NCBI RefSeq assembly: GCF_019649055.1
Contig: NW_026570331.1
Coordinates: 372,001-436,000 of the forward strand
Origin: Paramacrobiotus metropolitanus
Taxonomy: Eukaryota > Tardigrada > Eutardigrada > Parachela > Macrobiotidae
Length of the DNA stretch: 64,000 bases
Reading direction: 5' to 3'
Shown: positions 30,033-59,091 of the stretch, one piece after another
Position numbering within the stretch: position 1 is the first letter of the stretch
Layout: each line of letters begins with the position of its first letter
Translations under genes and position numbers: made by a program
The notes under the pieces: model-generated
Told to the model about the DNA's origin: nothing
What the model saw: only the letters and a program-made list of their open reading frames with translations
Databases searched by the model: none

Positions 30033-30040
30033 GTAATGCC

Positions 30041-30494: not shown

Positions 30495-30579
30495 GTACGC
30501 GTGTTATCATATACAAAAGACAGCATGGCATGGTTGAAATCGTTCAGCTGTCGAAGTAGTTGTCTTATGCAACGTGTAG

Positions 30580-30994: not shown

Positions 30995-31185
30995 CGGATC
31001 TGGTCATGGACCACATTTATCCCGGATGCGCGTACGTGGAGGGGAAGCTGTACGCCATTGGAGGGGATCGACGGGTAAAAAATGGTAATGGTTATTACAC
31101 TATAGTGGTGTACGATCACGAGAGGGACACCTGGGCGCTGCTTCCAAAGAATTACCGACTCCCGCCTATCCATTTGACTGCGTAG
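30995..31185 (+). CDS. BTB-Kelch gene, last exon
   Basis: Acceptor gactgcag ends at 30994. It reads ADLVMDHIYPGCAYVEGKLY then AIGGDRRVKNGNGYYTIVVYD and ERDTWALLPKN, a complete Kelch blade (Y.IGG...VYD...W), ending PPIHLTA and TAG at 31183-31185. The inverted copy at 43394-43584 is nearly identical. Confidence 0.87.
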
Positions 31186-31564
31186 TCATGAAGATGAAAC
31201 GCCGCTGAGGCGCGCTCCGGACTGCAGCTGACGAAACGGTGCCGTATAATTTATTTTCTTTTCCTTGTTTCTTTTTTTTGAGAATTTTCAAATCCCCTTC
31301 CTGATAGCATTTTGTATCTTTACTCGGATGTTGTGAGCTAACTGTCGGATTGTCGATGTGATCGGTGGATTGGTACCTTATTAGTTTTCTTCGCGATGAT
31401 GTATTGTTGCTGGAATAATTTTTCTTGCCAGATGCTCTATGGGTTACAGTTACAGTAGGTTGAACCTGTTTTTGTGCGTAATGAGCCAGAAACATTGCAA
31501 AAGGAGAAGTTATAAATCGTAACGATCTGCGACAGAATATCAACCAAAACAAAAAATGCGCTAC
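31186..31564. other. 3' flank of the BTB-Kelch gene (left arm)
   Basis: Shared with the right arm (43010-43393). The minus-strand open frame (and its plus-strand mirror at 43012) is conserved in both arms with few changes but has no recognisable domain; it most likely reflects duplicated 3' UTR/flank. Confidence 0.5.
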
Positions 31565-31915
31565 AAAATAGTGACAGGACTGCAAGAGATCGCTTTTGAA
31601 TAAGCTTAATCTGAATTAACTAATCCGAGTCATCCGACCACTCGCGGTCCGTTCAAGGTCACACAGGTTCATCAGAACGCTCAGGACAATGCGAGACAGT
31701 CACTCCCAGCGCAGATCCTGTAGTCCATCCCCGCACCACATCTTCCCTCGGTAATGCAAAGACGAAAGCGGATCCGCGGTCTACGTTCGGCATAACAGCA
31801 GCCGAACAGAATGCGCTTGATCAGAAACTGAATCACTTACTAATGATTTACGGCCGATTCTAATTTTCCTAATATTCATAAGATTCGAATAATAAGGAAA
31901 ACAGACGGCTTCGTC
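31565..31915 (-). repeat. inverted copy of the 3' flank of the 53-56 kb F-box gene
   Basis: Reverse complement of about 55810-56105: shared words include gatccgcg, gcgagacagt, cagatcctg, ccactcgc and cttaatctgaatt, plus the 3' end around the gaatattacgagaattagaatc stretch. It is present only in the left arm. This ties the left arm to the F-box cluster about 24 kb away. Confidence 0.8.
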
Positions 31916-31919
31916 CAGT

Positions 31920-32175
31920 ACCCGGTAGGGAAACTGCATGCCATCAGAACGAAATCGTCCGATGTTAGCGATACGCGCTGGGGTGAATTTCCCAACGGGT
32001 CGCGAATCTGTTCGTAGGGAAGCAGTTTGCGACCATAATTCGCGATTCGTTTACTTTACAGACTGCCGTGTGTAACAGCTCTTGGCCTCGTCCGGCGCGA
32101 TCGCTGTCAACCACACCCACAGAGCCCGCACGCCGTCGCTGTTGGGCACCGGCAGCGCCATCTCCAACGATAGTG
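31920..32175 (-). pseudogene. F-box-family fragments in the left arm
   Basis: Minus strand: a C-terminal F-box-family piece (like VWNALEMALPVP...ELL..AVCK of the 55-kb gene) joined directly to a mid-protein piece (SLTSDDFVLMACSF then TGYWTKPSV). The normal gene order is reversed by this junction, so it is a chimera of fragments. The same junction is in the right arm at 42105-42490, so it predates the inversion. Confidence 0.65.
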
Positions 32176-32758
32176 GACAGTACTCTAAAAGTAACCGGGA
32201 TTTACATGTTTAATGAGCTTGAACAATAGAATAGATTAAAAAATGACCAACGGTCGCAACGGTCGAGGTCAAAAGGCCAGGTTGGTATGTGTGTCAAGGT
32301 GATCAGCTGATCAATGCTCACTTTTACGCGCCGCAGGCCATTGTGCGGCATTTCTATCTTCTCTCTATAAATGAATCAACGTAAATGTGTAGGAATATGA
32401 TTATACGTGCGTGTGTACGTTACTGAAGCGCCTGACGCTGTCCTGAGAGCTTGCAAGATTCTTTACGGCAATTGTGTCTTCTGCTGTGAACTCTTTTAAT
32501 CGATGTTGTACATAGTCGATCAGCTGACGCTGTCTGCACTGCGGCACAATAATTTATGCGGCAATAATACCGGAAATCTGCTGAAGTTTATTGCAAAAAA
32601 TTTTCGTCTGTACAAAATGCATCTCAGATCACGTAAAAAAAGGAAAGTTAATGTTCCTTACAAAAACAAACTGTTTCTGAATCGTAAAAAAAAGCTGTTT
32701 TACCACAACGGAAGCATTTCGATCATCAAAATACATCACTACATAATCAGGAGAAAAT

Positions 32759-32967
32759 CTATACAGGGCTGTTTAAACCGCGTCCTCCACAATCGTAGCG
32801 ATTTGACAGTTCAATAGCCTCTGGGCCATATGCTGCTCCACGTGCTGAACGGGCTTTCAATGCAGCCCAGCCACGCCGAATCACGCAGACAACAGAGACA
32901 GCTGTGAGAGCAGCAGCCAAGATTCCCACACAGGCATAGATCACGTTAGACACTGTCACATCGGCAT
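32759..32967 (-). CDS. small membrane-protein last exon (left arm)
   Basis: After an acceptor (tttgcag) reads DADVTVSNVIYACVGIL, then a hydrophobic helix AAALTAVSVVCVIRRGWAAL followed by a basic/polar tail ending GGRGLNSPV. A single-pass membrane segment with cytoplasmic positive charges (type I topology likely). Near-identical to 41254-41462. Joins in phase to the exon at 33053-33106. Confidence 0.65.
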
Positions 32968-33052
32968 CTGCAAATCCAGGTCAAGATTTTCAATAATAAA
33001 TTATGTTAAGAAATTGTTTTAAAATGAGCGACGGTCTAAAATTTAATCCTAC

Positions 33053-33106
33053 CCGGTAAAGGCATGGCCGAGGTGTAGTCGTTCGGCGGATTAATGGAGT
33101 ACATTT
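33053..33106 (-). CDS. small membrane-protein penultimate exon (left arm)
   Basis: Reads (E)MYSINPPNDYTSAMPLP between an acceptor (tctttcag) and donor (gtagga), phase 1. Mirror of 41142-41195. The ATG at 33104 could serve as a start, but a further in-phase exon upstream in both arms makes it more likely internal. Confidence 0.55.
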
Positions 33107-33461
33107 CTGAAAGAGAAAGTTAGCGTGGTTTCATTTTTGAATTTTAAATGCCTAGCAGGTCGCAAGGGAGCAGCCGTCGTTCCATGTGCGATATCGATGG
33201 TGGACAATTTGGTGCCGTTGCAGTGACTAATAACAAAAGTCTTTATAATAGCGTTGCTTAAGAATCCGCAGCGAAATTATGAAAAAATTAATTTACTGCG
33301 CCGCGTAAAAATCAGCGGCAAAAATTATAAATAGATTAGTTGAACGCACGTAAAATTAAATATCACAGAAGAATTATATCACAGTAGTTTTCAGAAATAT
33401 AAACATCGGTGGACGTAGTACATAAACCTCGAGCGTGGCAGGGCACACCACGTAATCATCT

Positions 33462-38546: not shown

Positions 38547-38950
38547 CTATAACAATAAGACTGAATAAGCCAAACATGAGAGGGAAGGGAACAAAAACTG
38601 CGACAAACTTTTAGGTGGTGCATAGCGGAAAGCCCCGGTCGGGCCAGTATATCCGGTGGATGTTGATGCCACTGGTTCATCCAAAGCTGCGCCGCCGTTG
38701 CTCTGATGCGCGCCTCCCCCAGCGCCGCTGCCCTGGTAAACTACGTTTCCGCCACCGTTGCCGTGATACGCCCCTCCGCCAGCGCCGTTGCCGTTATACG
38801 CGCTCGCGCCGCCACCGTTGTTCTGGTAAGCTACATTTCCGCTGCCATTGCCGCGATACGCCGCTCCGCCACCGCCGCTGCCGTTATACGCGCCCGCGCC
38901 GCCACCGTTGTCTTGGTAAGCTTCGCCTTGATATCCGCCAATTTCTCCGC
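38547..38950 (-). CDS. Gly/Tyr/Asn-rich repeat protein, last exon
   Basis: Minus-strand exon after acceptor gttctag. It encodes about five irregular repeats of a unit like GGGAGAYNGNG / GGNVVYQGSG / GGGASAYNGNG, then LDEPVASTSTGYTGPTGAF and a hydrophobic end. Low-complexity Gly-Tyr-Asn repeats are seen in secreted structural or cuticle-type proteins and in phase-separating proteins; which applies here is unknown. The frame is open on the plus strand as well, but the minus-strand exon joins in phase with two upstream exons. Confidence 0.65.
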
Positions 38951-39006
38951 CTAGAACATGTAATAAAATTAAAAATTAAATAAACGAAGGATTTTAGATG
39001 ATTCAC

Positions 39007-41462: not shown

Positions 41463-42104
41463 ATTTTCTCCTGATTATGTAGTGATGTATTTTGATGATC
41501 GAAATGCTTCCGTTGTGGTAAAACAGCTTTTTTTTACGATTCGGAAACAGTTTGTTTTTGTAAGGAAAATTAACTTTCCTTTTTTTACGTGATCTGAGAT
41601 GCATTTTGTACAGACGAAAATTTTTTGCAATAAACTTCAGCAGATTTTCGTTATTATTGCAGCATAAATTATTGTGCCGCAGTGCAGACAGCGTCAGATG
41701 ATCGATTATGTACAACATCGATTCAAACACTTCACAGCAGAAGACACAAATGCCGTAAAGAAGCTTGCGGCACTCTCAGGACAGCGTCAGTCGCTTCAGT
41801 AACGTACACACACACGTATAATTATATTCGTACACATTAACGTTGATTCATTTATAGAGAGAAGATAGAAATGCTGCACATTGGCCTGCGGCGTGTAAAA
41901 GTGAGCATTGATCAGCTGATCACCTTGACACACATACCATTTGCCGTTTGACCCCAGGCGTTGCAACCGTTGCATTCTTTATTATGCCAACCTGACCTTT
42001 TGACCTCGACCGTTGCGACCGTTGGTCATTTTTTAATCTATTCTATTGTTCAAGCTCATTAAACATGTAAATTCCGGTCGCATTTAGAGTACTGTCCACT
42101 ATCT

Positions 42105-42492
42105 GGGATGCGTTGGAGATGGCGCTGCCGGTGCACAACACGACGGCGTGCGGGCTCTGTGGGTGTGGTTGACAGCGATCACGGCGGACGAGGGCCAAGA
42201 GCTGTTACACACGGCAGTCTGTAAAGTAAACGAATCGCGAATTGTGGTCGCAAAGTGCTTCCCTACGAACAGATTCGCGATCCGTTGGGAAATTCACCCC
42301 AGCGCGTATCCCTAACATCGGACGATTTCGTCCTAATGACATGCAGTTTCCCTACCGGGTACTGGACGAAGCCGTCTGTTTCTTCGCTGTTGATCCGCAA
42401 AGTCGAACTGCTGCTCGAGATTTAGTTTGTCAATATTCACAGTCGAGAGTTGCACTGTTTGCGACGCCCCCAGATCCTGCCTATGGGAGATG
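42105..42492 (+). pseudogene. F-box-family fragments in the right arm
   Basis: 42105-42240 corresponds to the C-terminus (VWDALEMALPVH..., ending at a tgtaaagtaaac like the 55.8-kb gene). 42243-42492 reads GRKVLPYEQIRDPLGNSPQR, VSLTSDDFVLMTCSFPTGYW, TKPSVSSLLIRKVEL, then TAG, matching the module before the donor in the 57-kb gene (SAGHFIKQMCSVPNGYWIMK), and ends at a gtaagt donor. Broken and chimeric. Confidence 0.65.
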
Positions 42493-43393
42493 ACGATGTG
42501 GTAAGTCCCTATTAGCAACGGCAGCTCAAGAACTTTTGTTTTAGAAGTACATCACTGAACTGTAAGTTTTCGCTTCTGCTTATAATAAGCGGAGGCGTAC
42601 GAGCGACACAAACAGTACCCCCGATCCGACTACACTCTACATGTCTGGTATTGGTGACATATCTTTCCTTTCCCACTGATCGGTGGCGTGATCATAAGCA
42701 TCCACTCACACACACGTCGTTCCTTTTCTAAGCCACGTAAACAGTTCAATACAAAATTTGCTGTGGCTGTTGAAAGATTCTACTCAATACTAATAACACA
42801 AAAAGAAGAAAAACCGAAAAAAAAGAGGTTCAGAAAAACAGCCCGGCGATATTACCAGTGCTCTTAGTACGTTTGGATGCAATCGAACATCGAATTTTTA
42901 GCTGTTTTGTTTATTGTGGGATATTGATATCAGTTTCGCTTTTTCTGGACCGTTTGATTTTAACAATGATCAGCGATGAACTGGTAACTTATAGATGAGC
43001 GCTTATGATATATGACTACCACTTTCAGCAAAGCATATTATTCTGTCGCTGATCGTTACGATCTTATAACTTCTCTTTTTGCAATGTTTCTGGCTCATTA
43101 CGCACAAAAACAGGTTCAACCTACTCTAATTGTAACCCATAGAGCATCTGGCAAGAAAAAATATACCAGCAACAATACATCATCACGAAGAAAACTAGTA
43201 ATGTACCAATCCGCCGTTCCCATCGACAATCCGACTGTCAGCTCACAACATCCGAGTAAAGATAAAAAATGCTATCAGGAAGGGGATTTGAAAATTCTCA
43301 AAAAAAAGAAACAAGGAAAAGAAAATAAATTATACGGCACCGTTTCGTCAGCTGCAGTCCGGAGCGCGCCTCAGCGGCGTTTCATCTTCATGA

Positions 43394-43924: not shown

Positions 43925-44000
43925 CCATTCTAACCCAATGGCCGGTGGCCGGGTCATAAGCCTCCACGCGCCGAAGGTCCAACGCATCCACTCCACCACC
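43925..44000 (-). pseudogene. right-arm Kelch copy, exon 5 with altered donor
   Basis: Reads GGVDALDLRRVEAYDPATGH, then WVRM. The donor position is atgggt where the left copy has gtgggt, so normal splicing here is doubtful. Confidence 0.75.
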
Positions 44001-44084
44001 TACACGTTGCATAAGAAAACTACTTCGACAGCTGAACGATTTCAACCATGCCATGCTGTCTTTTGTAAATGATAACATGCTTAC

Positions 44085-44682
44085 CGAAAACAAAGATCAA
44101 TCCGCCTGGACCCACGCAGGCAGTAAAGTATGCGCGTCCGAGCGGCATGTTATGCAGCCGGGTCCGTTTATCTGAATCAGGATCGTAGGAAAAGACATAT
44201 TGCCAAGAATTGTCGTCCCATTCTCCGCCGAATACAAACAGTCGACCGTCACATGCCACCATGGCAAAGCCGTACAGGCAAATGGGCAGCGGAGCAGCAT
44301 CGCTCCAGGTATTGATTTATTAGTGGAAGACTTCCAAGGACGTCAGTGTGCCGTCATCATAGCAACCGGCGACGTAAATGCTATCATTAAGCGAGGCAAG
44401 CGTCGCCCCCGGCGCGGCGTCGACGTCGTCCACCACGCGCTACTCATCACGGAGGCTCACATAGCGGCTGCCCCGCCGGACGATGTGCATGCCGTGATGG
44501 TGGGAAACGAAAATGGAAGCGGCGTCCAGCAACACGCTGCGGCAGCCTTCGCCGTCAGCGGGCAGATCATTTAGGCGCCACGGGGCCGGGATCGATGGAC
44601 TGAAGTCGTACACGGAGCTTGTAACGGGAGCTGTGAAGTCTGCGCTGTCACGCTCGCAACCGCGCACGCAGAAGATCACGTC
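44085..44682 (-). pseudogene. right-arm Kelch copy, exon 4
   Basis: Keeps the exon start lost in the left arm: acceptor gctcag, then DVIFCVRGCERDSADFT, VYDFSPSIPAPWRLND, GCRSVLLDAASIFVSHHHG, then ASLNDSIYVAGCYDDGTLTS. Two consecutive TAA codons (about 44319-44324 on the plus scale) replace the two Gln codons of the left copy. Beyond them ACDGRLFVFGGEWDDNS and YDPDSDKRTRLHNMP stay in frame, without the left copy's extra T. Donor gtaagc is intact. The stops make it a pseudogene as written. Confidence 0.82.
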
Positions 44683-45343: not shown

Positions 45344-46027
45344 TTAAGGGATTTGGCCCGGTACATAGCTTCAAATTTGTATACATCCACGGCAACTTTC
45401 GCTGTCGCGCACTCCTAAACGCTTTTTTTCATTGCTTTATGATGATCTATAGCCAAAGGATTCGTATAAATAGGCGACAAAACCGTTTGTGCGCGCAACA
45501 TCCGGTTCGTGAGTTATTAGTGAAACAAAATTCCAAAAGCTTAAACGCACGGAGTTGTACCAAAAGTCTCATTATGAACCGATGCTCTTCTAATTTTGCA
45601 CGAAAACACACATTACTATGAAGATCGTTTTGGTACCGAACCAGCTTTCCACCATTTTTTTCAAATTTTAAATTATTTTTTAAAATTTTTGAAATTCATT
45701 TTAAAATTTGGAAAAACTAGTAAAAAGCTGGTTCGGTACCAAAACGATCTTTATAGTAATGTGCGTTTTCGTGCAGAATTTGAAGAGCATCGGTTCATAA
45801 TGAGACTTTTGGTAAACCACCGCGCGTCTAAACGTTTGGAATTTTATTTCACTAATAACTCCCGAACCGGATGTTGCGCGCGCAAACGGATTTCACGCCT
45901 ACGTATACAAATCCTTTGGCTACAAAATGTCATAGAGCTATGCAAAAAAGTGTTTAGGAGTGCGCGACAGCGAAAGTTCCCGTGCAGATACCGAATTTGG
46001 TACTATGTACCGGGCCAAATCCCTTAA
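45344..46027. mobile_element. 684-bp foldback element bounded by TTAA
   Basis: Nearly the whole element is one palindrome: ttaagggatttggcccggta at 45344 and its inverse taccgggccaaatcccttaa ending 46027, with arms of about 310 bases (diverged by scattered changes) around an AT-rich loop near 45655-45722. Conserved paired blocks include ttggtaccgaaccagctt / aagctggttcggtaccaa next to the loop. TTAA at both ends would suit a piggyBac-type duplication, but since TTAA is itself palindromic the boundary is ambiguous. No coding capacity. Confidence 0.88.
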
Positions 46028-46275: not shown

Positions 46276-46948
46276 TTACACTGCTCCTATCACTTCACTG
46301 TCTGGAATCAACAGCGCCGCCTCCACCGCATTTCCCAGCGTGGACGCCAAATCGCTGCTCAGCGGCAGAGGTACCATGTTCATGTCGCCATTCATCTGCA
46401 AGGAGACGTACCAGCTTGGCAGCAGCTCCGTCAAACCGTCATAAAGCAGACACACCCCGCAGCAAATCAGATAGATGGCCACACACGGCAGACCCCGACA
46501 CGCTGCACCGAAACCACCAAAGTAACCCTTGAAATGTAGCCGGCCCAACGAATCCATCGCCAAGACGGTGCACCTCGCACTCGACTGGTTGGAAATAGTC
46601 ATCGCCATATCCGGCTCGGAAATCACGTTCGTGATACCGAAGAAATACAGCACCATCAGACGGATCCCGGGATGGGTCCGCCCGACATAATGGACCATTT
46701 TTAGTTCGTGAAGGAAATCCGGCAACTGGATCGCGTGTTCGCGTTCATGAATATTGACGCGCTTGATGGAGGGCATCCGACAGACGCATGCAGCGACCGT
46801 CTCGATGACAATGTTGGCCGTCAAAGCCGGTGCGTCCAGAATAGCATTCCACGCGGGGCACCCGCAGCATTGTCTGTGTCAGGGCGTCCAGATGGGTTAA
46901 CACCTGCTCCCACTCATCCATGCCAGAGAGCGGGATTCGTCGCTCCAC
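46276..46948 (-). pseudogene. Tudor-like/F-box family gene A, F-box part
   Basis: Minus strand: IPLSGMDEWEQVLTHLDALT, QTMLRV, then a register change of two bases near 46.87 kb, at an expected Cys codon, into AWNAILDAPALTANIVIETV, LKMVHYVGRTHPGIRLMVLY, and a C-terminus ending LASTLGNAVEAALLIPDSEV. It matches the F-box region of the intact gene at 55 kb (LSLGVHEWLQVFAHLDTLTQ...). F-box proteins recruit substrates to SCF ubiquitin ligases. The frame break and a shortened C-terminus suggest a decayed copy. Confidence 0.68.
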
Positions 46949-47214
46949 AGATACGCATGTGTTCTACCAAAAGTTTATAAACCAATGAAAGTTTGTCTGT
47001 GTGGAAAACAAATTTACGCAAACGCTGCAGTCAATACCAATAACTCATGGTAGCCGTGCTTTTCCCAATCGTACCCAGGCTGGTCTATACGCTGCCATTA
47101 GTAAGCGTCCTAATCACCTAAACGTTCGCTATACAAGCGTCGTGTCATCCCCTCGCCGCTGTGAAAGGCAGACGTCACCGTTCAGCTCCACACCCGCGAC
47201 ATCGATGCAAACCA

Positions 47215-47840
47215 CCGGGTGAGGTTTCTTGGGTTACCAAACGCGTCGCCCGTTGGTCTGCAGTTCCATCAGCACCTGTCTCAGATGAGCCGCAGGCACC
47301 GCACGCCACTCAAACGTCAGCGGCACAATGCGCTTGGCAAAACGTCCCGGTCCAATGCGCAGCAGGTGCGTCACCTGCGACACCTGCAGCTCCTCGTGGT
47401 GTTCTTCCGGCCAGGCAGGATGACGAACGTGGTGCTTTGGGGAGAATGTCCGGCCAGATGGCGCCGCTGTCCTTCTGCCCCTGCACGACCGACGCCGTTA
47501 AGCCGTTACACCGATCCGATGTTCCCGACTCCTTGAGACTAATCAGGTTCCCTGGCCACCCACGTCATGCCCCAACGGGATGTTGACGGCGCAGCACTGC
47601 CACCGGGATCGTCATCCAGGGCTCCAGTGACGAGACATTTTCAATTTCCATTAGGTGAATGGTATGTGATCGGATAGGAAAACACGGTTAAATGGGATAA
47701 GGTTCGCTGCGACGATTGGGGCACAGCAGATCGATGTATAGCCCGTTGTCCGCCATATCGATGTAGAGCCTGTTGTCCGCCATGTCCACCACGCGGCCAT
47801 GCAAAAGGATATGACCACAACGTTGATGTCAATAAGCCGT
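47215..47840 (-). pseudogene. Tudor-like/F-box family gene A, N-terminal modules
   Basis: Minus strand: LHGRVVDMADNRLYID directly followed by a second MADNGLYIDLLCPNRRSEP, a 27-base tandem duplication inside the first Tudor/Agenet-like module. Further on VAVLRRQHPVGA and GQKDSGAIWPDILPKA match the second module of the 54-kb gene (VLRRQYPGGAW...GAIWTDFVP). Several stops and frame changes. Together with 46276-46948 it forms one decayed gene on the minus strand. Confidence 0.6.
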
Positions 47841-48045
47841 TCCGCAAAAAAAAAACATGGCCTACAACCGGCTTTGAGACATACTACTGTCACATACAAA
47901 CGGCTTACCAATTCGCAAATGAATTTTTGAATATTCGTAATTTTAATTCGATGGCATCGCCCACTGCACGTGTAACCTGGGTGGCCACCCTCCGTAACTA
48001 TATAGATATTCACCTGTAGGAAAAAGATGGAAGATCAATTTACGC

Positions 48046-48300
48046 ATGAAATGCTGTGGATTTGGATTTTGGAAGTCGACGGTGTGCTGCAGCACGGCCA
48101 CGTCGTCCGTCTGAAAGAGAAAAACGAGAACGACAACACACCGCGGCGTCTGATTGTCGATACTTGACCCATCAGGCGGTACTGATGGATTACGAGGTAT
48201 TCGACTGCTCTACTGATCGATTCAGCAGCGCGAGCGCGGACGTCGATGTGGAGGTGCTGCTGTGTTATTGTGCTGTATTAACGGCTCGAAGTCAATAAAA
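48046..48300 (+). pseudogene. Tudor-like/F-box family N-terminal fragment
   Basis: Plus strand: LEVDGVLQHGHVVRLKEKNE, RRLIVDT, one-base register change near 48165, then LTHQAVLMDYEVFDCSTD, ASADVDVEVLL. Aligns with VEINGQLQHGYVIGLKEY... and GADVEVLLRDG of the 57-kb gene. Stops after about 80 codons and has no F-box part; the 153-bp Kelch fragment lies 190 bases downstream. Confidence 0.65.
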
Positions 48301-48487
48301 AAAATTAATAGTTCTAATAAAAATAATACCAACCAGTCAATTGCAATATAGCGTGTGTATAAAGCGCTGTTCTAAACTCGCGTGGCGGAACGTGTAGGCT
48401 TTTCCTCCCGGCCCGGCCACATATTGTTGTCTGGTGCTCCGGAAAAGGGTGCACCTTGGAAATAGTTGCACCTTGGAAATGGTGCAC

Positions 48488-48640
48488 CGCCGAAGGTCCA
48501 ACGCATCCACTCCACCACCTACACGTTGCATAAGAAAACTACTTCGACAGCTGAACGATTTCAACCATGCCATGCTGTCTTTTGTAAATGATAACATGCT
48601 TACCGAAAACAAAGATCAATCCGCCTGGACCCACGCAGGC
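48488..48640 (-). repeat. third copy of a Kelch-gene fragment, 153 bp
   Basis: Matches 43969-44121 base for base by eye, including the 69-base intron with both splice sites and flanking parts of exons 4 and 5. It sits about 4.4 kb beyond the right arm next to a fragment of the F-box family, in the same orientation as the right arm. Intron retention shows a DNA-level duplication rather than retroposition. Confidence 0.9.
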
Positions 48641-49321
48641 TTTCCTTTAGTACTTGCAGTTACGTGATCATCACAAAATGACGACCGGTACAGGAGACTG
48701 CTTTTTGGGACATTTCATGCTTAATGAGTTTTTTGTGTTGGTTACTTTCAACATGCATTATCAAACAATTTTTAACCTTCCAGATCCACTTAAGTAATTG
48801 TAAAATTATTATTGCTAGAAGTACGAGTATTCGATAAAGCACGACCCACAGTCAAATTGCTAGTAAATTAAAACCAAGAATTCGAAAGGCAAAGAAACCG
48901 GCGAAATCGCTCATGAAAAAACGGTTATTTCGCTCTCAAATGCCGCACTGCAATTTATCTTTCAATACGGTAAATATTCCATAATAAGCGGAAACGCAAC
49001 TGAAATAATCATTTTCATTCCTTCAAACACGAGCATTAACTGGCTACACCATCACTCCCTTCTATTATTGTTATTATTATTGTATTATTACATTATCACC
49101 AACCGGTCGAGAGAAACTTGCGTGAAAAATATCGCGAAAAAAACGACAGTTAATAAAAGTCTATAAAACGACAAAATTCGAAGTCAACACCGAACATCAG
49201 CAGGAAAACAAGTTGACACGACGACAAGCAGCGACGGGATTAAATACTACTGAAAAAAACGTTGATCGGTGAGCAAACGAGTATGCGACCGGAGCGGCCA
49301 TTGGACGGGCGTCTGGGCCGT

Positions 49322-49567
49322 TCAGGGACGCCAGGCGCGCGTCTCCAAGAGGGCCCGGAGGCCTGCCCGCTCGTCCGTTTTCCCATACCACAGGCGTCCC
49401 TCGCAGCGCAGCTCCCACTCCTCGGCGCACTGCACCACGCAGCCCAGCGCCAGCGGCGAGAGCTGGGAGAGGGGCGGGGCCAGACGGAAGATCGCATCCG
49501 CGCACTGGCAGCCGCCTAATCCCGGCGGACCGGCCCCGAGGCCCACCGCCTGTAGCGCACACAGCGT
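49322..49567 (-). CDS. Tudor-like/F-box family gene B, last exon
   Basis: Acceptor tccttgcag before 49567; in-phase reading TLCALQAVGLGAGPPGLGGC, QCADAIFRLAPPLSQLSPLA, LGCVVQCAEEWELRCEGRLW, ending ETRAWRP and TGA. The overall protein from the three exons is about 630 residues. Other frames here are also open because of GC bias; phase continuity with the F-box exon decides this one. Confidence 0.68.
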   Translation of the reverse strand, partial: TLCALQAVGLGAGPPGLGGCQCADAIFRLAPPLSQLSPLALGCVVQCAEEWELRCEGRLWYGKTDERAGLRALLETRAWRP

Positions 49568-49782
49568 CTGCAAGGAAACAACGCATCATACACATTATCT
49601 TCCACTTTCGTTCCCCCGCAATATCCTCTTCAATCAAACCAAACAACGTAGCAAAAATTCGTTTAAACCGAACAAAATATTCTGCCATAACTCTGCCAAA
49701 TGGCGTCTGGTGGTAGTAACTGGATAAAACTAAAAAACACTTGGTAAGAATAAAAGATAGCAGCAAGCTACACCTACGGTAC

Positions 49783-50628
49783 CTGGCACAGAATTTTCAC
49801 CATGGTCCCTTCCCAATACCGGGGGCTGTGCTTAGTGAGCTGCAGTTGCGCGCGGTTGGCCTTGATCCAGGCCACCCATTCGGCCGCGCGCCGCTCGTCC
49901 TCCCCGGTCACTCGCCACTCGACGCCCTCCGCGATCAGCGCCCACACCGACCCGGCCAGATCCGCGCTCGTTGGCTGCAAGCGGGCCACCGGGATGTGGA
50001 CGGGAATGTCCATGATATAGACCACCGTGTCCCGGTTAGGTAAGTCCTTCACGGTCCGGTGGGGGTCAACGCTGAGCAGGCGCACCCGACAATGCAGAAT
50101 CACCACCTCCGCGCCCGGCAGCCGGCGCAGCGCATCCGCCAAGTCCGCCACCCAGTTCGGGTAGGAGTTGTACAGCTGGTCGTTGTGTGGGCAGGCGTCA
50201 ACGGACAATTGCCACTCCATGCGCACGAGATGCACCACCGGCACACGGATCCCCGGGAAGTGGGCGGCAATTGCGCCGAGCTTGCACACCGTGTACAGAT
50301 CGCCTCCGCGGAGGATGAGATTGCGGGTGGTGGTGCGGAGGCAGTGGCGGATGGTGGCCATGAGGACGTAATCGGCGGAGGCGTAGCTGTTGGGCCCGAT
50401 GACGAGGATGTTAGCTAGCACGCCAGACTGCAGGACGTCATTCCAGAGGGCACAGACGGGGCACACTCGCGTCTGCTGGATCGTGTCCAGGTGAGCGAAG
50501 ACTGCTGACAGGAGCGGCAGTGACAGCCGCAATCCGTCGTCACCGGAAGATGCCACGGACAAGTCCAGCATTCGCAGCATCCGCGGCAACGCCAGTTGTA
50601 GGCGCGCACGATTCTCCTTAAAGACAGT
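49783..50628 (-). CDS. Tudor-like/F-box family gene B, F-box exon
   Basis: Between acceptor ggtgttgcag and donor gtaccg, phase 0 on both sides, 282 codons without interruption. SLPLLSAVFAHLDTIQQTRV, CPVCALWNDVL is an F-box (LP...L..VF..LD...R...VC..W). It is followed by about 220 residues with regularly spaced hydrophobics (VLMATIRHCLRTTTRNLILR, RVPVVHLVRMEWQL, AEVVILHCRVRLLSV), plausibly a divergent leucine-rich or family-specific substrate domain. Best-preserved member of the cluster. Predicted SCF adaptor (inference). Confidence 0.8.
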
Positions 50629-50961
50629 CTGCAACACCAGCACTGCAACTCTTAAATGAAATGTAATTCGCCACACATCAGCGCGTCCATGTCCGGCCAG
50701 GCAGACAGGCGCACTGACTAACTGCTAGGCTTGTACTTGCAATCACAACTTCCAGATCGCAAATTGCAAACATTAAACCAAATCCGTTTCAACAATAAGC
50801 GGGCCTACGCGAGTTAAGATCATTTGAAACTATCCTGGAAAAATTGTTTTTTTCAAATATTGTTTTTTTCAAATATATCAAATCCTGACATGAGAAGATC
50901 TGAGGGGAAATTAAAGGAAAAACAAACCTCTGAATTTCAACACAAATTAAAGGGTCCTTAC

Positions 50962-51755
50962 CCAGTGCGGCCAGTCGTTCCAGTTTGGGTCCGTGCGCTC
51001 CACGAAGAACCAACCGACGTCAGTATCCTCCAGCCGGCGCACAAACACAAACCCGGGTCGCCGCTCGACAACCGTGCCGAGTGGCCCCACGGCTTCGCTG
51101 CGGCAGCGGTCCCGCCAAGCCTCCAGGAGACAGCGCAGCACTGGCTCCGACAAGGCGGCGCACGACGCCGGCAACTGCACCCGGCCGGCGGCGTAGTCCC
51201 CGCGGCGCACCAGGGCGCGCTTGTAATCCTCCCCATAGTACTCCCGCAACGCCGCCTTTCCGGGGGGCCCGCTCGCTCCGGCCAGAATGCTGTTCCAGCT
51301 CGCCATGTTCAGATCCGTAGGCGGGTAGCGGATGCGGTTGCTCGGGACGACGAGCAGCGGCCCGGCAGCCACGCCGTCCGCGTTGAGCAACCGCAGCGGA
51401 GTGGCGCTTAAACCGTTCATCAGTCGCGTGGGCGAGTGCAGCGCCAGCTCGGCGCTGACCCACGTCCAGGGAGAGTGGGGCTGGGGACGCAGAAGCACCT
51501 CCATCGTACAGCGTAGATCCTCATCCAAATCGTAGCCAATGCCATACGGCTGGTGGAAGATGCGTCCGAAGCGGATCAGCTCGCGGCGCCGACCCGCGCA
51601 GAGCAAGTCGATGTACAGACCGTTCTTCGCCACGTCCACGACCCGCCCAAACAACAGCCGCCCACTCGCATCCCACACATCGACGGTGTCGCAGCGATCG
51701 CCCAGCTCCTGCGCAGTCTCCCGCACAGTCAGCTCCAGGACGCCAGGCTGAGGCG
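50962..51755 (-). CDS. Tudor-like/F-box family gene B, exon with Tudor/Agenet-like modules
   Basis: Minus strand, uninterrupted. Preceded by a probable acceptor (attgcag, ending at 51756), so an upstream exon with the start is likely; an ATG at 51771 lies in that presumed intron. Module 1: DTVDVWDASGRLLFGRVVDV, AKNGLYIDLLCAGRRRELIR; module 2: TMEVLLRPQPHSPWTWVSAE. A third part (YYGEDYKRALVRRGDYAAGR, GFVFVRRLEDTDVGWFFV) has no named match. The V-x-V...G.V.D....V/L.I pattern resembles Agenet/Tudor folds (as in FMRP), an inference from pattern only. Donor gtaagg at 50961, phase 0. The gene is GC-rich compared with its flanks. Confidence 0.78.
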
Positions 51756-53100
51756 CTGCAATTAATTCCACATTAGTAAAGAATATAAATTATAAAATAC
51801 AAATAACTAGTACTCCGTGTTATCCTATGCACAGTAAGAACAAGAGCTGCACCGTGAAGGTGGATTCACGGGAGAAAGGCAATTTCAGGCAACAGTATCA
51901 GTAAACACCAGCTGTGCAGAGCTCGACTTCGTGTTCGCGAACTGCGCTGCATTGTGCTAACCTTTCTCAGATCCATTTACCACGGGAGCGTGAAACCGAA
52001 AAAGAAAGCAGAATCTCAACGCTGACAGCTTCAAGAGAACGGTAGACACGTTTGGAATTCTATCGTGAAGCGATGAAAAAGGAAAGTACCGAAAACTGCG
52101 AGCAACCAAGGCAGAAATTCACATAATGACGGACAATTCAAATTCCAGATCCAAAATTCAAATGCCCAGACAACTGCCAATGGGCAGCGAGTTCGAAGAA
52201 AGCTGGCATAGGACGAAAATGGCCACCCAATATGGGGATCTGTTTTAAGCTTACGCTCCGCCCACCATTTCGAGCACGTCGTTTTAACTTTTAACATGCG
52301 CGGGTGTTTTCGGGGTTTGTGCAGACTGCAGAGCCATTGGTTGAGACGAGATGGCAGCACCCAATCAGGCTACCAATTAAAATTATGTGCAGTACTCTTT
52401 TTATTATGCACGTTCTGGCGGTACTGCAACGAGCAGTGGGTGCGAATTTGACGTAAACAGACTAACGAGTAACGATGTGTCTACCAATGATAGTTTCCGG
52501 CAATGCGGATTGGCTGTACTGAGGTACTGAGTTAGCGAATAATGTGACTCCTAGCGCAACACACACGTTCCATGTAATTTACACGCACTCGCACCCCGTA
52601 ACTCGCACGCTCCGCCCCTCGGTTGCAGATAAGTACTCAGTACTGTATTGTCAAGTCACCACGTAGTGGATGAGATCACCTCATCATCTTGTCACCGTCG
52701 CAGGGTTTTGGTTTGGGGCCGCTTTCAGTAAGTGTTAGGAGTCTAGGACATCCGCTTCAAGGTGAAAGTTTACTTTCTATGGCAGTTACTTTTGGTAACG
52801 AACATCACTGATGCTGTGAGTCAGTCGAGGAATCCGACTTATTCACTGTCAGCAAAGACAACAAATATCTCGAGATCTGAATGTTGAACAGTACAATATC
52901 TCCTGCTTCCAGAGTTCCCAGTTTCTGAGGTAAGATTACTGATGCGTGGATAATATCGGGCAAGCACTGTGCTAAATTGTTGCACTGCTGGCGTGCTCGT
53001 TGTCCACTGAATGCAGTTCTCGATGCTGTCTCGTAATGCTGTAGGTATTCCAATGTTCTGCCTCTCCAAAACGAGCTCTTATCTCTTCTCTTGCATTGTG
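51756..53100. other. region between divergent F-box-family genes
   Basis: No supported gene. Genes B (minus) and C (plus) point away from each other across this stretch, so their promoters or first exons should lie here. Minus-strand frames at 52805-53122 (one starting MAADDTHNAREEIRARFGE) look partly coding but need a frame change and have no recognisable domain. Confidence 0.35.
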
Positions 53101-53116
53101 AGTGTCATCGGCAGCC

Positions 53117-53305
53117 ATGTTTGTGCCACGGACCCGTAACATCACCGTAGTGGGAGACGGTAACGTCCTGCTGCACGGCCGCGTGGTGGACGTGGCGAAC
53201 AACGGGCTCTACATTGATCTGCTGTGCCCAGGTCGTCGACGCGAGTTCTTTCCATTCAACCATGTCTTCCTATCAAAATCCATGGAATTCGGGGACGTGC
53301 TATAG
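53117..53305 (+). CDS. Tudor-like/F-box family gene C, first module
   Basis: ATG at 53117 (gcagccATG). Reads MFVPRTRNITVVGDGNVLLH, GRVVDVANNGLYIDLLCPGR, RREFFPFNHVFLSKSMEF: the same first module as gene B. An in-frame stop comes at 53303-53305, just inside the inserted retrotransposon fragment, which separates this module from the second at 54328. Confidence 0.72.
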   Translation: MFVPRTRNITVVGDGNVLLHGRVVDVANNGLYIDLLCPGRRREFFPFNHVFLSKSMEFGDVL

Positions 53306-53309
53306 AACT

Positions 53310-54325
53310 TCATCTGGAGCGAGGATTCATGGGAGACGATAACGATAACCACGCCACTGTTGACGCTACTGGTGCCTCGGAGTCATGGAAATTAAAAGCC
53401 CGTCAACCTCAACCCCCGGAAACGGAAACTCTATTTCGAAAGTCCCAAAAGGCCTGGGACTTGCCGTTATGCAACGTGTCTCTTGCGGCCCTCCTGGAGG
53501 TATTTCAAGGAGACGAAATCAACACTGCGCGCCTGCTTGCCCAGTCTAGACCAGAAGCTGGAATTTGGTTGAACGCCTTGCCGTCCTCTCACATCGGTAA
53601 TCTACTGGGCGACGACGAACTGAAGATCAGCATCGGCCTCCGACTCGGCGCCACGATCTGCGAACCGCACGACTGCGTCAAATGCCACAAACCCGTTGGT
53701 GGTTACGGACACCAGGGGTTATCGTGTGCTTTCTCCGCTGGACGGCATCCGCGCCACGGCGGGTTAAATAGCATCATTTGTAGGGCCTTTGTATCCGCTG
53801 GTGTGCCTGCAAAACTGGAGCCGCGCGGCACCTCTCACACAAACGAACGCCGCCCGGATGGTTGCACGACATTTGCCTGGAAGCGCGGATTGTGTCTTGC
53901 ATGGGACGTGACATGTGTAGACACGGTTGCGCTGTCGCATGTTAAAGCCACTTCCACCACAGCGGGAGCGGCCGCTGTGCAAGCAGAGGGAAAGAAATCA
54001 GGACTATATTTCTATCTGACCGGCCGCTACCTATTCGTCCCGATCGCTTTCGAAACACTGGGCCCGTGGGGACCATCAGCGATCGCCATCATCAAAGAGC
54101 TGGGAAAAAGACTACAGCAGCACACCGGGGAAGCACGCTCACACGAATTTCTGCGGCAGCGTTTGTCCATCGAAATTCAACGGGGAAATGCGGCTTCGGT
54201 GCTGGGCACGATGGAAGGGCTGGAGAAGCTGAACGAAATTTTTCTGTTATAGTTCAGTGTTTTTCTTTTTATGTTTATGTATTGCGTTTTTGATTTGACC
54301 AATAAAGTGTGATATCAGACGATCC
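53310..54325 (+). mobile_element. 5'-truncated non-LTR retrotransposon fragment: zinc finger and restriction-like endonuclease
   Basis: A 300-plus-codon open frame ending TAG... at 54252: WLNALPSSHIGNLLGDD, ICEPHDCVKCHKPVGGYGHQ, GLSCAFSAGRHPRHGGLN, LEPRGTSHTNERRPDGCTTF, WKRGLCLAWDVTCVDT, LGKRLQQHTGEARS, LSIEIQRGNAASVLGTM. The Cys/His cluster followed by RPDG...WD fits the C-terminal CCHC plus PD-(D/E)XK-type restriction-like endonuclease of early-branching non-LTR retrotransposons (as in R2/CRE/NeSL types), from pattern memory. No RT domain is left, as expected of 5' truncation. It interrupts gene C between its two modules; ccatgga occurs at both edges and may be a target duplication. Confidence 0.6.
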
Positions 54326-54327
54326 CC

Positions 54328-54810
54328 ATGGAGGTGCTGCGCCGTCAGTATCCCGGTGGAGCGTGGCGCTGGTGGCCCGGTACCATGCTGGATCCGTTGT
54401 CTCATTCTCCCTCATTATTTACGACGGATTACGCCGTGGTGGCCATCGTCCAGGGACGGGACGACCGCGGCGCCATCTGGACGGACTTTGTCCCCAGGGA
54501 CCGCCTTCGCCATCCCGTGCCAAACGACTGCTCGAAGCAAGATGGTGTGGAACCAGAGATGGCGTCAGTGGTGAAGCTGCTGCCAATTGCACCGGGGCGC
54601 TTTGTCAAGCGCAGGATGCCCCTGCCCACCGAGTGTCGTGCGGCGTCACCAGCACAAGTGCTGCAGGTGATGAAGGAGCTGCAGGCTAAACGGCGGTCTT
54701 CCAAAGGACAGGTGGTCTGCGTCAATGTCGCAGATGAGCAGGTGCATTTCATTGTGCAGCTGAACGGTGACGTTTGCTTTCCGCTGCGGCAGGTCGAAGA
54801 CAAGGCACAG
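54328..54810 (+). CDS. Tudor-like/F-box family gene C, second module exon
   Basis: Reads MEVLRRQYPGGAWRWWPGTM, YAVVAIVQGRDDRGAIWTDF, VPRDRLRHPVPND and a following family-specific part (GRFVKRRMPLPTECRAASPA, VCVNVADEQVHFIVQLNGDV). In frame to the donor gtacgc at 54811. The module is shared with genes A, B and D. The upstream join to the first module is broken by the retrotransposon fragment. Confidence 0.75.
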
Positions 54811-54846
54811 GTACGCTAATTCGTCAATCGTCACTGTCTCCTGTAG

Positions 54847-55839
54847 TCGGATATCTACATTCCATGGAGATTTCAAGTGTCCGTTTGTTTTACTCCGGTT
54901 TTGGGGAATCGGTGTTGTTCATTGTTACATGAAATTGTTCGGGCGTTGCATAAGGCGCTGGTTGGTCGTGTTCCGAAGATCCTGCGTGGGATAAAGACGC
55001 CGGTAGAAACTTTGAATATCTGCGAAACGACGGATGAACCGCTTTCGCTGGGCGTGCATGAGTGGCTGCAGGTGTTCGCCCACTTGGACACGCTGACACA
55101 GACCAAGCTGCGCGCGGTGTGTTCGGCGTGGGACGCTATTCTGGACTTGCCAATCTTGACGGCTCACATAATCTTCGACACGAGCGCTGCTCGCAGCCCT
55201 TTGAGTAATCTGCATTATATTCTCATGGCACCCCTTTTCAAATGCCTGCACTCGTCCAGCCATCATGTTATTCTACACGATCGCGACCAATGCATCGACA
55301 TGACAAACTTCTTGATGATGTTGGATATTATTCACTACATGGCGCGGACTGACCACGGAATCCGCTTGACGGCGCTGTATGTGGTTGGCGTGACTCACTT
55401 ATCGTCATTTGTCTCCATCAATCTTGATTACTGCGAGGTGCATGTTCCCAACGATCTGAATGCACTTGAGGTTTCGTTCCCGGGCCACCTCGATGCTCTC
55501 GTTGTGTCAAGTCGCGATCTGCCGTGTGCTGCCATTCATCTGGTACGGTGCCGGGTGTCTTTTCGCTATTGTCTGAATGGTCTACTGCCTTCTTGGGACG
55601 GTTCTTGTGACGCTGGTCCGAAGCTGCATTTCGATTTGGTCAAGACGCGTCTACCACTAAACGGAGATGTGGCGCTGACGGTGTGGAATGCGTTGGAGAT
55701 GGCGCTACCAGTTCCCATCGACGACGGCGTGCGGGCTCAGTCGGAGTGGCTGACGGCGATCGCGGCGGAAGAAAGCCAGGAGCTGTTGCGCGTGGCAGTT
55801 TGTAAAGTAAGCGAATCTTATGAATATTACGAGAATTAG
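54847..55839 (+). CDS. Tudor-like/F-box family gene C, F-box exon
   Basis: Acceptor tctcctgtag ends at 54846; phase 0 with the previous exon. Reads SDIYIPWRFQVSV..., then EPLSLGVHEWLQVFAHLDTL, TQTKLRAVCSAWDAILDLPI (F-box), followed by a long regular region (LHYILMAPLFKCLHSSSHHV, IHYMARTDHGIRLTALYVV, LDALVVSSRDLPCAAIHLV) and TVWNALEMALPVPIDDGV...ELLRVAVCK. It runs to TAG at 55837-55839, or splices at gtaagc after AVCK (55807). Uninterrupted for about 320 codons. The upstream intron would be only 36 bases. Confidence 0.78.
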   Translation, partial: SDIYIPWRFQVSVCFTPVLGNRCCSLLHEIVRALHKALVGRVPKILRGIKTPVETLNICETTDEPLSLGVHEWLQVFAHLDTLTQTKLRAVCSAWDAILDLPILTAHIIFDTSAARSPLSNLHYILMAPLFKCLHSSSHHVILHDRDQCIDMTNFLMMLDIIHYMARTDHGIRLTALYVVGVTHLSSFVSINLDYCEVHVPNDLNALEVSFPGHLDALVVSSRDLPCAAIHLVRCRVSFRYCLNGLLPSWDGSCDAGPKLHFDLVKTRLPLNGDVALTVWNALEMALPVPIDDGVRAQSEWLTAIAAEESQELLRVAVCKVSESYEYYEN

Positions 55840-56106
55840 AATCAGCCGTAAATCATTAGGGATTGATTCAGTTTCTGATCAAGTGCATTCTGATTGGTAG
55901 CTGTTATGCCGAACCTAGACCGCGGATCCGCGTTCGTCTGTGCATTACCGCGGGAAGATGTGGTGCGCGGATGGACTGCAGGATCTGCGCTGGGAGCGAC
56001 TGTCTCGCATTGCTTTGAGCGTTCTGATGAACCTGGGGTGCCTTGAAGGATCCTGCGAGTGGTCGGATGACTCGGATTAGTTTATTCAGATTCAGCTTAT
56101 TAAGAA
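55812..56106 (+). repeat. source region of the left-arm insert
   Basis: 3' flank of gene C. Its reverse complement occurs at 31565-31900 in the left duplication arm (see that entry). It contains the paired words gacagtcgctcccagcgcag/atcctgcagtcc type blocks in both places, with scattered differences. Confidence 0.78.
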
Positions 56107-57160
56107 GCGATGTCTTGCAGTTCCAGTACAGTCACTATCTTGTAGCTCGTTTTTTGTGTTGCTTGTGGACGTTGTGACACTGGAAGTCTTTGGCGTTCGA
56201 CAAATTCCTGCTTCTGGTTCTTCTTTTGCGAAAACATTTTGATAGTAACCAACACAATTACGAATTGTCTGGTGGTGTTTCCATTTGGAGCCGGGTGCAA
56301 TTTCTGTTGGAAAATAAACGTTTCCGTTGTAATTTCCGGAATGTTTTTTCCTCCATAACTTCCCGTCCGAATGTTGCGCTCGCTGACGGGTCTTTGTGCG
56401 CCAGTGTATAGAAATTATTCGAGTCCAAAAATTATTCCTCGGCTTACAGCAACGATAGAAAAAGCGCGAAAGCGAAAGAAAGTTAACCATGATTGCACGT
56501 TTGGTACCATGTACGCATTGTACGGTGTACCAGCTGCAGTTCATGACTGCAGCACTATAGCAGCAGTGCATGACACGTGTTCATTTCTTCGATCCGCACG
56601 CATAGGTGCTGCAACAAAACAACCGAATTCCTGCGCTAGTACCATGCAAAACTTTAACAAATCTAAGGATCCAAACTGTAAAGATTAAAAACCGTATTAA
56701 TTACAAGGATCAAAAGCCTGGCAGTTATAGACCGATAACTGCTTTCAGGTTACAACAACTCAGACAGCAGTGGCCAGTGAGGCGATGTTCAGACACTTCG
56801 TACAATACTTTTTTCAACTAAACCGCTTTATGCTTCTTGGCCTCTGTGTTTCAATCATTACCTGAACAGGTTTACCAACACAATCACATTTGGACTTACG
56901 TGCCAACGCGGCATATGCAAGCGGATACTGCCAGTCAGCAGAATCAAATTGGCCTTCAGCAGAATTCACGCTTGAATACAGTACTATAAGTGATGTTTCG
57001 CTGATCTGGCCTGTTAGTTGTGGGTTTTCGCAGTCACTACGGCAAGCCTTACTTCCAGAACTCTTCTGCACTTGTGCGTTAACCGACAAACTGCAGGTGC
57101 TAGTGCCTCTCCCTACGAATTGTCGTACGGCTAATGTTCTGCCTCCTAGCAAGACGTCCA
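56107..57160. other. intergenic DNA upstream of gene D
   Basis: No supported coding sequence. The plus frame leading into gene D is open back to 56890, but the residues before 57169 do not resemble the family, so they are probably 5' UTR or an upstream untranslated region. Confidence 0.4.
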
Positions 57161-57168
57161 ACATAGGA

Positions 57169-57777
57169 ATGCACCTGTACAAACGAGCGGTGTATGCGTG
57201 GAACGCTGTAGATGTGGAGATTAACGGACAACTGCAGCACGGCTACGTCATCGGCTTGAAAGAATACGACAACGATCCCCCGTACCTGATGATCGATTTC
57301 AGATGGCCAGTCCAGCAGGTGGTTCTGGTTCCCTACGGGAGGATCTGGAGCTGCTCCACCACTCAGTCGAGTAGCCCCGGCACGGGAGCCGATGTGGAGG
57401 TGCTGCTGCGTGACGGCCAGAACAACCTGTGGAAATGGTACCCCGGGAGAATGCTGATTCCGTGCTTCCAAGAGCTGGATAAGGTGGCGTTGGTGGAGGT
57501 GATGATAGGCGGGCAGTGTCGTCGCAAACTAATTCCCGGCCAACAAATTCGGGTTTGTTCGGGAGACGGTATCAAGCCAGGACTTCTTTCAGCGGGACAT
57601 TTCATCAAGCAGATGTGCAGTGTACCGAATGGCTACTGGATTATGAAACCGTCCTGGTCGGCATGGCTGCTACGACGAGTTGAGCGAGAGCACAATCTGC
57701 GATTTTTTAAAATTCTCGGCCGGATGATGCACTATGTTCGGGGTAGCCAGGGGCCGTCTTTGACGGATGAACATCTG
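57169..57777 (+). CDS. Tudor-like/F-box family gene D, module exon
   Basis: Start chosen at 57169 (MHLYKRAVYAWNAVDVEING) because family similarity begins there. Module 1: NAVDVEINGQLQHGYVIGLK, YLMIDFRWPVQQVVLVPYGR; module 2: GADVEVLLRDGQNNLWKWYP, VALVEVMIGGQCRRKLIPGQ. A third conserved part, SAGHFIKQMCSVPNGYWIMK with LLRRVEREHNLRFFKILGRM, also seen in the duplication arms, ends DEHL at donor gtacgt. Uninterrupted, 203 codons, phase 0. Confidence 0.8.
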
Positions 57778-57873
57778 GTACGTCATTGTTTGTGATCGAC
57801 TGTTTCTACAACTTTAAAGTTTATCTTCTTATCGCATAATTGTAGTAATAGGCTTTCCACTTTTCCAACATAG

Positions 57874-58701
57874 GCGGTTGTGTTCGAAAGAGAGAGAAAG
57901 TCTAGAACAGCCCGTTCCTACCTTTTGCGTTCTGCCGACAACGGCGAGCTGGATGGCGAACCCAAGCCACAGGAATCGTCGAGTGTCGGTGAAGGTGCTT
58001 TGGCACTGCCTTTGCCCGTGTTGAAGAAGATCTTCTACTCACTGGACACCGTTGAGCGACAGGGCTGCCGACGCACCTGTCAACTGTGGGAGCCATTCTC
58101 ACCTCGGCGGAGTTATGCAGCGAGGTTCGTGTGTCGCGACCAGATCCTACCTCTCCCTGTCCAGGAACGCGGGATCGTATTTACGCCACGTATGCCTGCA
58201 TCTTCAAGCACATCACGTCCGCCATCCGCACCGTCGGTATACGTTACGCGGACACGTCCTACTTTGATCGCCCCGCCGCGGAATGTGCCGATGAAACGCT
58301 GGATATAATTACCAAAGTTCTGGGAGACGCTGGACTGCGCATTCACCGTTTGATCATGTTCCAGCAGTTGATCGAGATCGCACCGTCGGTATATCCTGGC
58401 CAATTGAAACTGAGCCAGCTTTCCGCCATGATAGCCGCGCAGCTGTCCAAACTCGCACCATTCTGCGATCGTGTGATCTGGAAAGACTATGTCGTCACAA
58501 TGTTATCCAAAAAGGATAACTGCCGTCTGATGGAATTTGACATTCCCGCTGCTGTCTTCTCGCCGGGACATGTCGGTGAGGCGCACATTGTCGAACTGTT
58601 GGAGCAGCACCTGTGCTGGGAGGGGCCGCCGTTGGATGTGCATTGCCCATTTCATGGCCAACGGAATTGACAACGAAGCGGCGGCCCGGAAAGTGGCGCA
58701 G
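57874..58701 (+). CDS. Tudor-like/F-box family gene D, F-box exon (frame-broken)
   Basis: Acceptor ccaacatag ends at 57873. AVVFERERKSRTARSYLLRS, then F-box ALPLPVLKKIFYSLDTVERQ, GCRRTCQLW. One base appears missing at about 58089, after which the family sequence continues in another frame: GAILTSAELCSEVRVSRP, YACIFKHITSAIRTVGIRYA, ECADETLDIITKVLGDAGLR, VYPGQLKLSQLSAMIAAQLS. A second register change near 58.63 kb restores a frame ending NEAAARKVAQ at donor gtatgt. Otherwise well preserved, so either two real frame shifts or sequencing errors. Confidence 0.72.
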
Positions 58702-58935
58702 GTATGTGCATCAGACTACGCATCGTGTTGACATGTGTTTTACGGTAGAAGCAGCTTGCTAGCAGTGGTTGCTGATTCTCACAGACTCACACCAGATGCG
58801 ACTTTCATTCTTTTCTGATTTTGTAAAACGGTTTTCCGTGATAAAAATTTCTGGAATATTTTGTCTAATAGCGCTGGTGTTTTCTTTTGTCTCCTGGCGT
58901 ACAGCTTTGTGTAACCCGCTGAAATAATTTTGCAG

Positions 58936-59091
58936 ATTCTAGAGGACTACCAGTACTGTGATCCGCGTCCCTCCTCGCAGTTTCGGGGACGTCAATGGAG
59001 TGCAAAGAATCTAACGGGCGTGGACGTTGGAAAATTGAACCGATTCTGCCTGCGGGCCTTGTCGCATTACATGTCCACCATCCACGAATGA
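58936..59091 (+). CDS. Tudor-like/F-box family gene D, last exon
   Basis: Acceptor ttttgcag ends at 58935, in phase with the previous donor. Reads ILEDYQYCDPRPSSQFRGRQ, WSAKNLTGVDVGKLNRFCLR, ALSHYMSTIHE and TGA. 51 codons, so easily missed. Confidence 0.6.
   Translation: MLEDYQYCDPRPSSQFRGRQWSAKNLTGVDVGKLNRFCLRALSHYMSTIHE

Follow-up and report, generated by a model that had tools for sequence, protein, structure and literature searches.

The region spanning 46276-59091 of a 64-kb stretch of DNA, the whole of which is called the window, contains a cluster of related gene copies that carry their modules in the order of Tudor1, Tudor2, a KH0-like part and F-box. Four copies were located, A and B on the minus strand and C and D on the plus strand, together with a fifth short fragment at 48069-48262 (+), and an inverted duplication carries one further piece of the family in each arm, at ~32.2-31.9 kb (-) and at 42.05-42.5 kb (+). 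An earlier note on this DNA had counted at least five members or fragments within 13 kb with more in the arms, and had arranged them as two Tudor modules, a third part and an F-box; the count agrees with ours and the arrangement was upheld in B, C and D, where the parts are joined by phase-0 splice sites. When profiles made from copies A-D were run over the six frames of the window, the Tudor1 profile gave 90-97 bits for B, C and D, 29-30 for two A pieces and 17 for the fragment; the Tudor2-KH0 profile scored 170-196 in B, C and D, 71 in A and 58 and 43 in the arms; and the F-box profile scored 77-93 in B, C and D and 17.5 in A. Each copy scores against its own profile by construction, and the reversed window used as control gave top scores of 10.6, 7.4 and 8.2 bits, respectively. 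The profile of the F-box extension, in which the row of B was cut out of frame, was used for its matches in the arm fragments, A and C only. No copies additional to those named were found by the profile scan in the 64 kb window.

The exons of copy B (-) comprise a head exon with Tudor1, Tudor2 and the KH0-like part at 50962-51755, placed by its open frame, splice strings and homology to C and D and flanked by a GT donor after 50962 and an AG acceptor before 51755; an F-box exon of 282 codons with phase 0 at both ends at 49783-50628 (frame, splice strings and Pfam); and a predicted last exon of 81 codons plus TGA at 49322-49567 (frame and splice strings), which gave no Pfam match at E<=0.1. No lesion is seen in these three located exons, whose frames stay open over 264, 282 and 81 codons and whose GT-AG sites agree in phase. 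Copy C (+) has a start codon and Tudor1 at 53117-53296 with a possible weak donor at 53297 (frame, profile and splice strings), an exon for Tudor2 and the KH0-like part at 54319-54810 (same evidence) and the F-box exon with its extension at 54847-55806 (frame, splice strings and F-box-like at E 0.025). A retroelement-like insert (53275-54318, +) lies between its Tudor1 and Tudor2, with edges set by comparison with A, as the DNA similarity between A and C breaks off at 53274 and restarts at 54318. A frame of 344 codons at 53218-54252, which we take to be reminiscent of the C-terminal part of proteins of long interspersed nuclear element (LINE)-like retroelements, extends into the insert, and its end is similar to 12659-12573 of the window (E 0.001). 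Pfam and NCBIfam searches with the insert gave no match. A weak GT together with an AG could allow the insert to be removed by in-frame splicing. Copy D (+) has the exon with Tudor1, Tudor2 and the KH0-like part at 57169-57777 (frame, structure model of 57166-57792, Foldseek and splice strings), the F-box exon at 57874-58701 (Pfam, frames and splice strings), in which the frame shifts near 58090 and near 58640, and a predicted last exon at 58943-59091 (frame and splice strings). The head exon leads to a GT, and an AG leads into the F-box exon, at an equivalent place in B, C and D with phase 0 on both sides, across gaps of 333, 36 and 96 bases, respectively. There is no in-frame ATG ahead of the F-box in C or D, and an ATG stands just ahead of it in B.

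The relationship of the head was assessed with sequence profiles and a predicted fold. When the N-terminal exons were made into a profile and run against 177,635 distinct PDB sequences, the sole matches at E<=10 were FXR2 (E 0.032), FXR1 (E 0.064) and FMRP (E 1.4), in an alignment that covers Tudor1, the linker and the beginning of Tudor2. Another alignment of these exons found FXR2 (0.036), FXR1 (0.043) and no others, and single-sequence PDB searches with the heads of D and B (E<=10) gave no match. In hhalign with D as the master, the score against FMRP plus FXR1 was 30.8 over 127 columns, colinear with FMRP 5-140, and none of 200 column shuffles reached it (mean 12.0, standard deviation 2.3, maximum 25.6); with B as the master the score to FMRP was 39.2, the shuffle null having been made for the D master only. 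The AlphaFold2 model of copy D (mean predicted local distance difference test score, pLDDT, 69.4; predicted template modelling score 0.58) has two five-stranded barrels followed by beta-alpha-alpha-beta-beta-alpha, a succession of strands and helices that corresponds to two Tudor barrels and a KH fold of type I, as in FMRP Tudor1-Tudor2-KH0. When this model was searched with Foldseek, ranks 1-8 of 886 were FMRP (7) or FXR1 (1), with FMRP Tudor1-Tudor2-KH0 at the top; six KH0-bearing FMRP chains had E 5.0e-6 to 9.7e-5, and Tudor-only FMRP and FXR1 entries were at ~1e-3. These results together suggested that the head is an FXR (FMRP/FXR1/FXR2)-type tandem Tudor (Agenet), by profile and predicted fold and with single E-values that are marginal. 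The two tandem Tudor/Agenet modules of the earlier note were thereby supported and narrowed to the FXR type, and the structure prediction that it had proposed, run on the head of D, returned Tudor-like barrels with FMRP and FXR1 at the top Foldseek ranks.

The third module, which had been described as a conserved part without explanation, has a conserved start (F..K....P...) that was aligned to FMRP F126 to R138, and the arginine at the R138 position is present in C only. It is common to the family and probably KH0-like, as the fold predicted in D fits KH0, although the sequence alone gave no significant signal for it. The KH0 domain is described in a part of PMC9603430 as a degenerate KH without GxxG, for which a role in protein-protein contact is suggested, and this agrees with a head that would bind partners. 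The sole PDB match of a KH0-only profile was UnaG (E 1.2), and it was judged to be chance.

The F-box of copy D matched PF00646 with E 5.5e-4 and 20.2 bits against the Pfam cut-off of 20.5, and those of B and C scored 12.9-14.8 bits at the same place (B: PF00646 E 0.098, F-box-like E 0.1). F-box or F-box-like was the top-scoring Pfam family in the F-box exons of B, C and D. The profile of the F-box exon found FBXL3 alone in the PDB at E<=10 (PDB 4i6j, E 0.13), and the first F-box piece of D as a single sequence found no match at E<=1. An extension of ~200 residues after the F-box is common to A, B and C, whereas the stretch downstream of the F-box in D matches neither B nor C (shuffle z 1.5 and -1.2); thus, the F-box with a regular extension that had been claimed for the family is supported as to the F-box, and as to the extension in A, B and C and not in D. 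Foldseek matches of a predicted model of the C F-box exon, RAD51 among them, were discarded for the pLDDT of 41.8 of that model. As controls only, given that the window looks like animal DNA, the C F-box exon was compared with a viral collection and the B head with a bacterial and archaeal collection, and neither had a close relative there.

The residues of the methyl-lysine pocket and of the lock between the Tudor domains were compared with FXR1. A part of PMC2970552 prints the Tud2 pocket of FXR1 as V66, Y95, W97 and E104, and the inter-Tudor lock as E6, R47, E65 and R112. The solved FXR1 chain has Ala at 97 and Trp at 78 and 79, so the "W97" printed there may be a slip for W79. In FXR1 numbering, all of B, C and D retain E65, V66, W78 and R112, the last of which is also present in the right-arm piece. 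At the W79, Y95 and E104 positions, copy C has Trp, Tyr (uncertain, as the alignment is gapped there) and Asp, whereas copy D has Tyr, Val and Lys, and copy B has Val, Leu and Leu. The pocket thus looks retained in C and not in B or D, from its residues, and target choice therefore probably differs by copy. Copy C could read methyl-lysine, and the targets of B and D are probably not chosen through such a pocket. The "modified-residue reader" of the earlier note would accordingly hold for C at most and probably not for B or D, whose pocket residues are changed.

The relatedness of the copies was measured by nonsynonymous (dN) and synonymous (dS) divergence, in which dS exceeds 1 and is near saturation in most pairs, so that the dN/dS ratios are rough. 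Tudor1 of B and C is 74% identical in amino acids over 34 codons (dN 0.17, dS 1.86), with differences of 0.24, 0.12 and 0.53 at codon positions 1, 2 and 3, and the F-box exons of A and C differ by dN 0.53 and dS 1.32 over 185 codons, with 0.45, 0.31 and 0.55 at the three positions. Protein-level constraint is visible in both pairs, with third positions most changed. Some pairs, the D-B Tudor exon and the A-B F-box exon, are linked by C alone (z 3.4 each, both under the best of 500 shuffles).

The module order, the homology among the copies, the in-frame splice sites and the FXR-type match by profile and predicted fold led us to consider it fairly likely that the cluster holds copies of a multi-exon animal gene with an FMRP-type head and an F-box (plus the extension in A-C), which would act as a substrate adaptor of the Skp1-Cul1-F-box (SCF) type. 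In the SCF scheme the F-box sits on Skp1 and ubiquitin is transferred via Cul1-Rbx1. The gene, if expressed, would dock on Skp1 through its predicted F-box and select a target protein by the FMRP-type head, and the target would be ubiquitinated through Cul1-Rbx1. The N-terminal block of FMRP binds protein partners such as FUS, as stated in a part of PMC5430443.

Several observations weigh against this reading. For the head, the Tudor, Agenet and KH models of Pfam (E<=10) and NCBIfam had no match in the family exons, and the sequence E-values for the FXR match are individually marginal; hhalign with C as the master, a row that lacks Tudor1, scored 18.4, which is within the range of the D-first shuffles; and the similarity of the D and B Tudor exons as a pair is not significant. 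Only one of five AlphaFold2 models of D was good (69.4, the rest 47-51), and the six best Foldseek chains have template modelling (TM)-scores of 0.39-0.46 at a root-mean-square deviation of ~8, which means that the domain placement is not reproduced. The Tudor1 half of the lock is lost: Asp (B and D) or Thr (C) replaces E6, and Phe (B and C) or Trp (D) replaces R47. The KH0 part alone scored 9.1 in hhalign against 8.3 for shuffles (standard deviation 1.8). For the F-box, every score is under the Pfam cut-off, the open piece of A had no F-box match in Pfam and the model of the C F-box exon is poor. For the gene structure, the 36-base gap of C would be a very short intron, and the 5' exon of B with the start codon was not located.

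The state of the remaining pieces bears on a different explanation, in which the cluster is a graveyard, its members being dead duplicates or fragments whose parent gene perhaps works elsewhere in the genome, with no working protein made here. Copy A (46279-47818, -; from homology, frames and profiles) is decayed, and its Tudor1, Tudor2, KH0-like and F-box pieces are interrupted by stops and frame changes; it has a tandem duplication of 27 bases at 47730-47783 and an open F-box-extension frame of 200 codons at 46279-46878 that gave no Pfam match. The fragment at 48069-48262 resembles Tudor1 and the start of Tudor2 of D (tblastn E 1.5e-5 over 48002-48262; Tudor1 profile E 5.5e-4 at 48069-48125). 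The inverted duplication pairs 29333-33349 with 45067-40899, with main blocks 90-95% identical, and its left (31899-32226, -) and right (42046-42503, +) fragments, placed by tblastn, repeats and profiles, are chimeric remnants, as a C-type F-box end abuts a D-type KH0-like piece in both. The duplication that the earlier note had seen is therefore clear, but its picture of a family "expanding" suits the lesioned A, C and D less well than one duplicating and decaying. The stops of A, the insert of C, the two frame changes of D, the chimeric arm fragments and the missing 5' exon of B all fit the graveyard. However, the three located exons of B are open with GT-AG sites in phase, the open parts of C have GT and AG strings able to splice the insert out in frame (with a weak donor), the two frame changes of D cancel, as assembly errors could, and third codon positions are the most diverged in the pairs above; we regard this explanation as doubtful.

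It is unlikely that the copies are generic Tudor/Agenet readers of methylated residues joined to an F-box with no particular tie to FMRP, as the earlier note had it. SETDB1, UHRF1 and plant Agenet tandems do come next after FMRP/FXR in Foldseek, from E 1.7e-3, and the pocket of C looks kept (V66, W79, the uncertain gapped Y95, and Asp for E104), but FXR-family chains lead by both profile and fold with other families absent at E<=10 by sequence, and the pocket (positions 66, 79, 95 and 104) reads V, V, L, L in B, where it is lost, and V, Y, V, K in D, where most of it is gone. Two adjacent genes, one for a Tudor protein and the other for an F-box protein, that were duplicated together would account for the two parts being on different exons and for the ATG directly ahead of the F-box in B, but are highly improbable, given that order, strand, short spacing and phase-0 GT/AG are alike in three copies and that C and D have no such ATG. 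Within the preferred reading of a fused SCF adaptor, we offer tentatively the possibility that a duplicated N-terminus of FMR1 was fused to an F-box, making a lineage-made SCF family that would capture FMRP partners, or FMRP itself, with a head resembling that of FMRP and destroy them, the copies with a diverged pocket (B and D) catching other partners than C.

The window has multi-exon EGF-repeat genes (exons at 15780-17840; Pfam EGF and hEGF), a copia element and a gene of BTB-BACK-Kelch type, and on this account appears to be animal DNA. The copia long terminal repeat (LTR) retrotransposon at 5982-10433 has two direct-repeat LTRs of 218 bases that are 100% identical, which indicates a recent insertion. 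The BTB-BACK-Kelch gene at 28487-30556, presumably a CUL3-type adaptor, lies near the F-box cluster; Kelch pieces are also carried by the duplication arms, and a 153-base piece of the gene is repeated at 43969-44121 and 48488-48640, the two being 100% identical to each other. An inverted repeat of ~270 bases (45349-45618 and 45754-46023; 68% identical in translation) stands beside copy A and may be a small mobile element. A frame at 38550-38975 is rich in glycine, alanine and asparagine and has tandem units of 30 and 90 bases.

The N-terminal block of FMRP is familiar from the fragile-X proteins, where its binding partners are a subject of study. If the preferred reading is true, this block is portable, the copies offer naturally occurring variation in its pocket and in the part of KH0 near R138, and the third module gains a name; a further implication would be that an FMRP-like receptor serves some animals in the degradation of RNA-granule or chromatin partners. 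As far as the literature searches reach, an F-box adaptor with this head appears not to have been seen previously. By title and start of abstract, none of the matches listed joins an F-box to an FMRP-type head, in line with the "apparently undescribed" of the earlier note; none of the matches listed for 'tardigrade' with 'F-box' names such genes in its title; and the main text of PMC5531438 contains no F-box, ubiquitin or FMR terms.

Among the known systems, the N-terminal block of FMRP, FXR1 and FXR2 (PDB 4ova, 4qvz, 3kuf and 3h8z) is alike in module order, in modelled barrel topology, in E65, V66, W78 and R112 (B, C and D) and, for C and D, in lying close to the probable start codon, while identity is 11-25% depending on the alignment method and the pocket is altered in B and D. 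The C-terminal layout of FMRP is KH1, KH2 and RGG parts. Here the F-box exon comes next instead, with no KH match among the family exons run against Pfam, and the family is not placed within the FXR family. The FBXL class (FBXL3, PDB 4i6j) is alike in F-box sequence at E 0.13, and differs in that the F-box here is under the Pfam cut-off with an FXR-type head in front, and a leucine-rich repeat is not shown in the extension. SCF-Fbxo4, which acts on FXR1 according to a part of PMC5688124, is alike in linking an F-box ligase with fragile-X proteins. In that system, as far as the same part goes, fragile-X proteins bind Fbxo4 in trans with FXR1 as the substrate, whereas here the head and the F-box would be parts of one protein.

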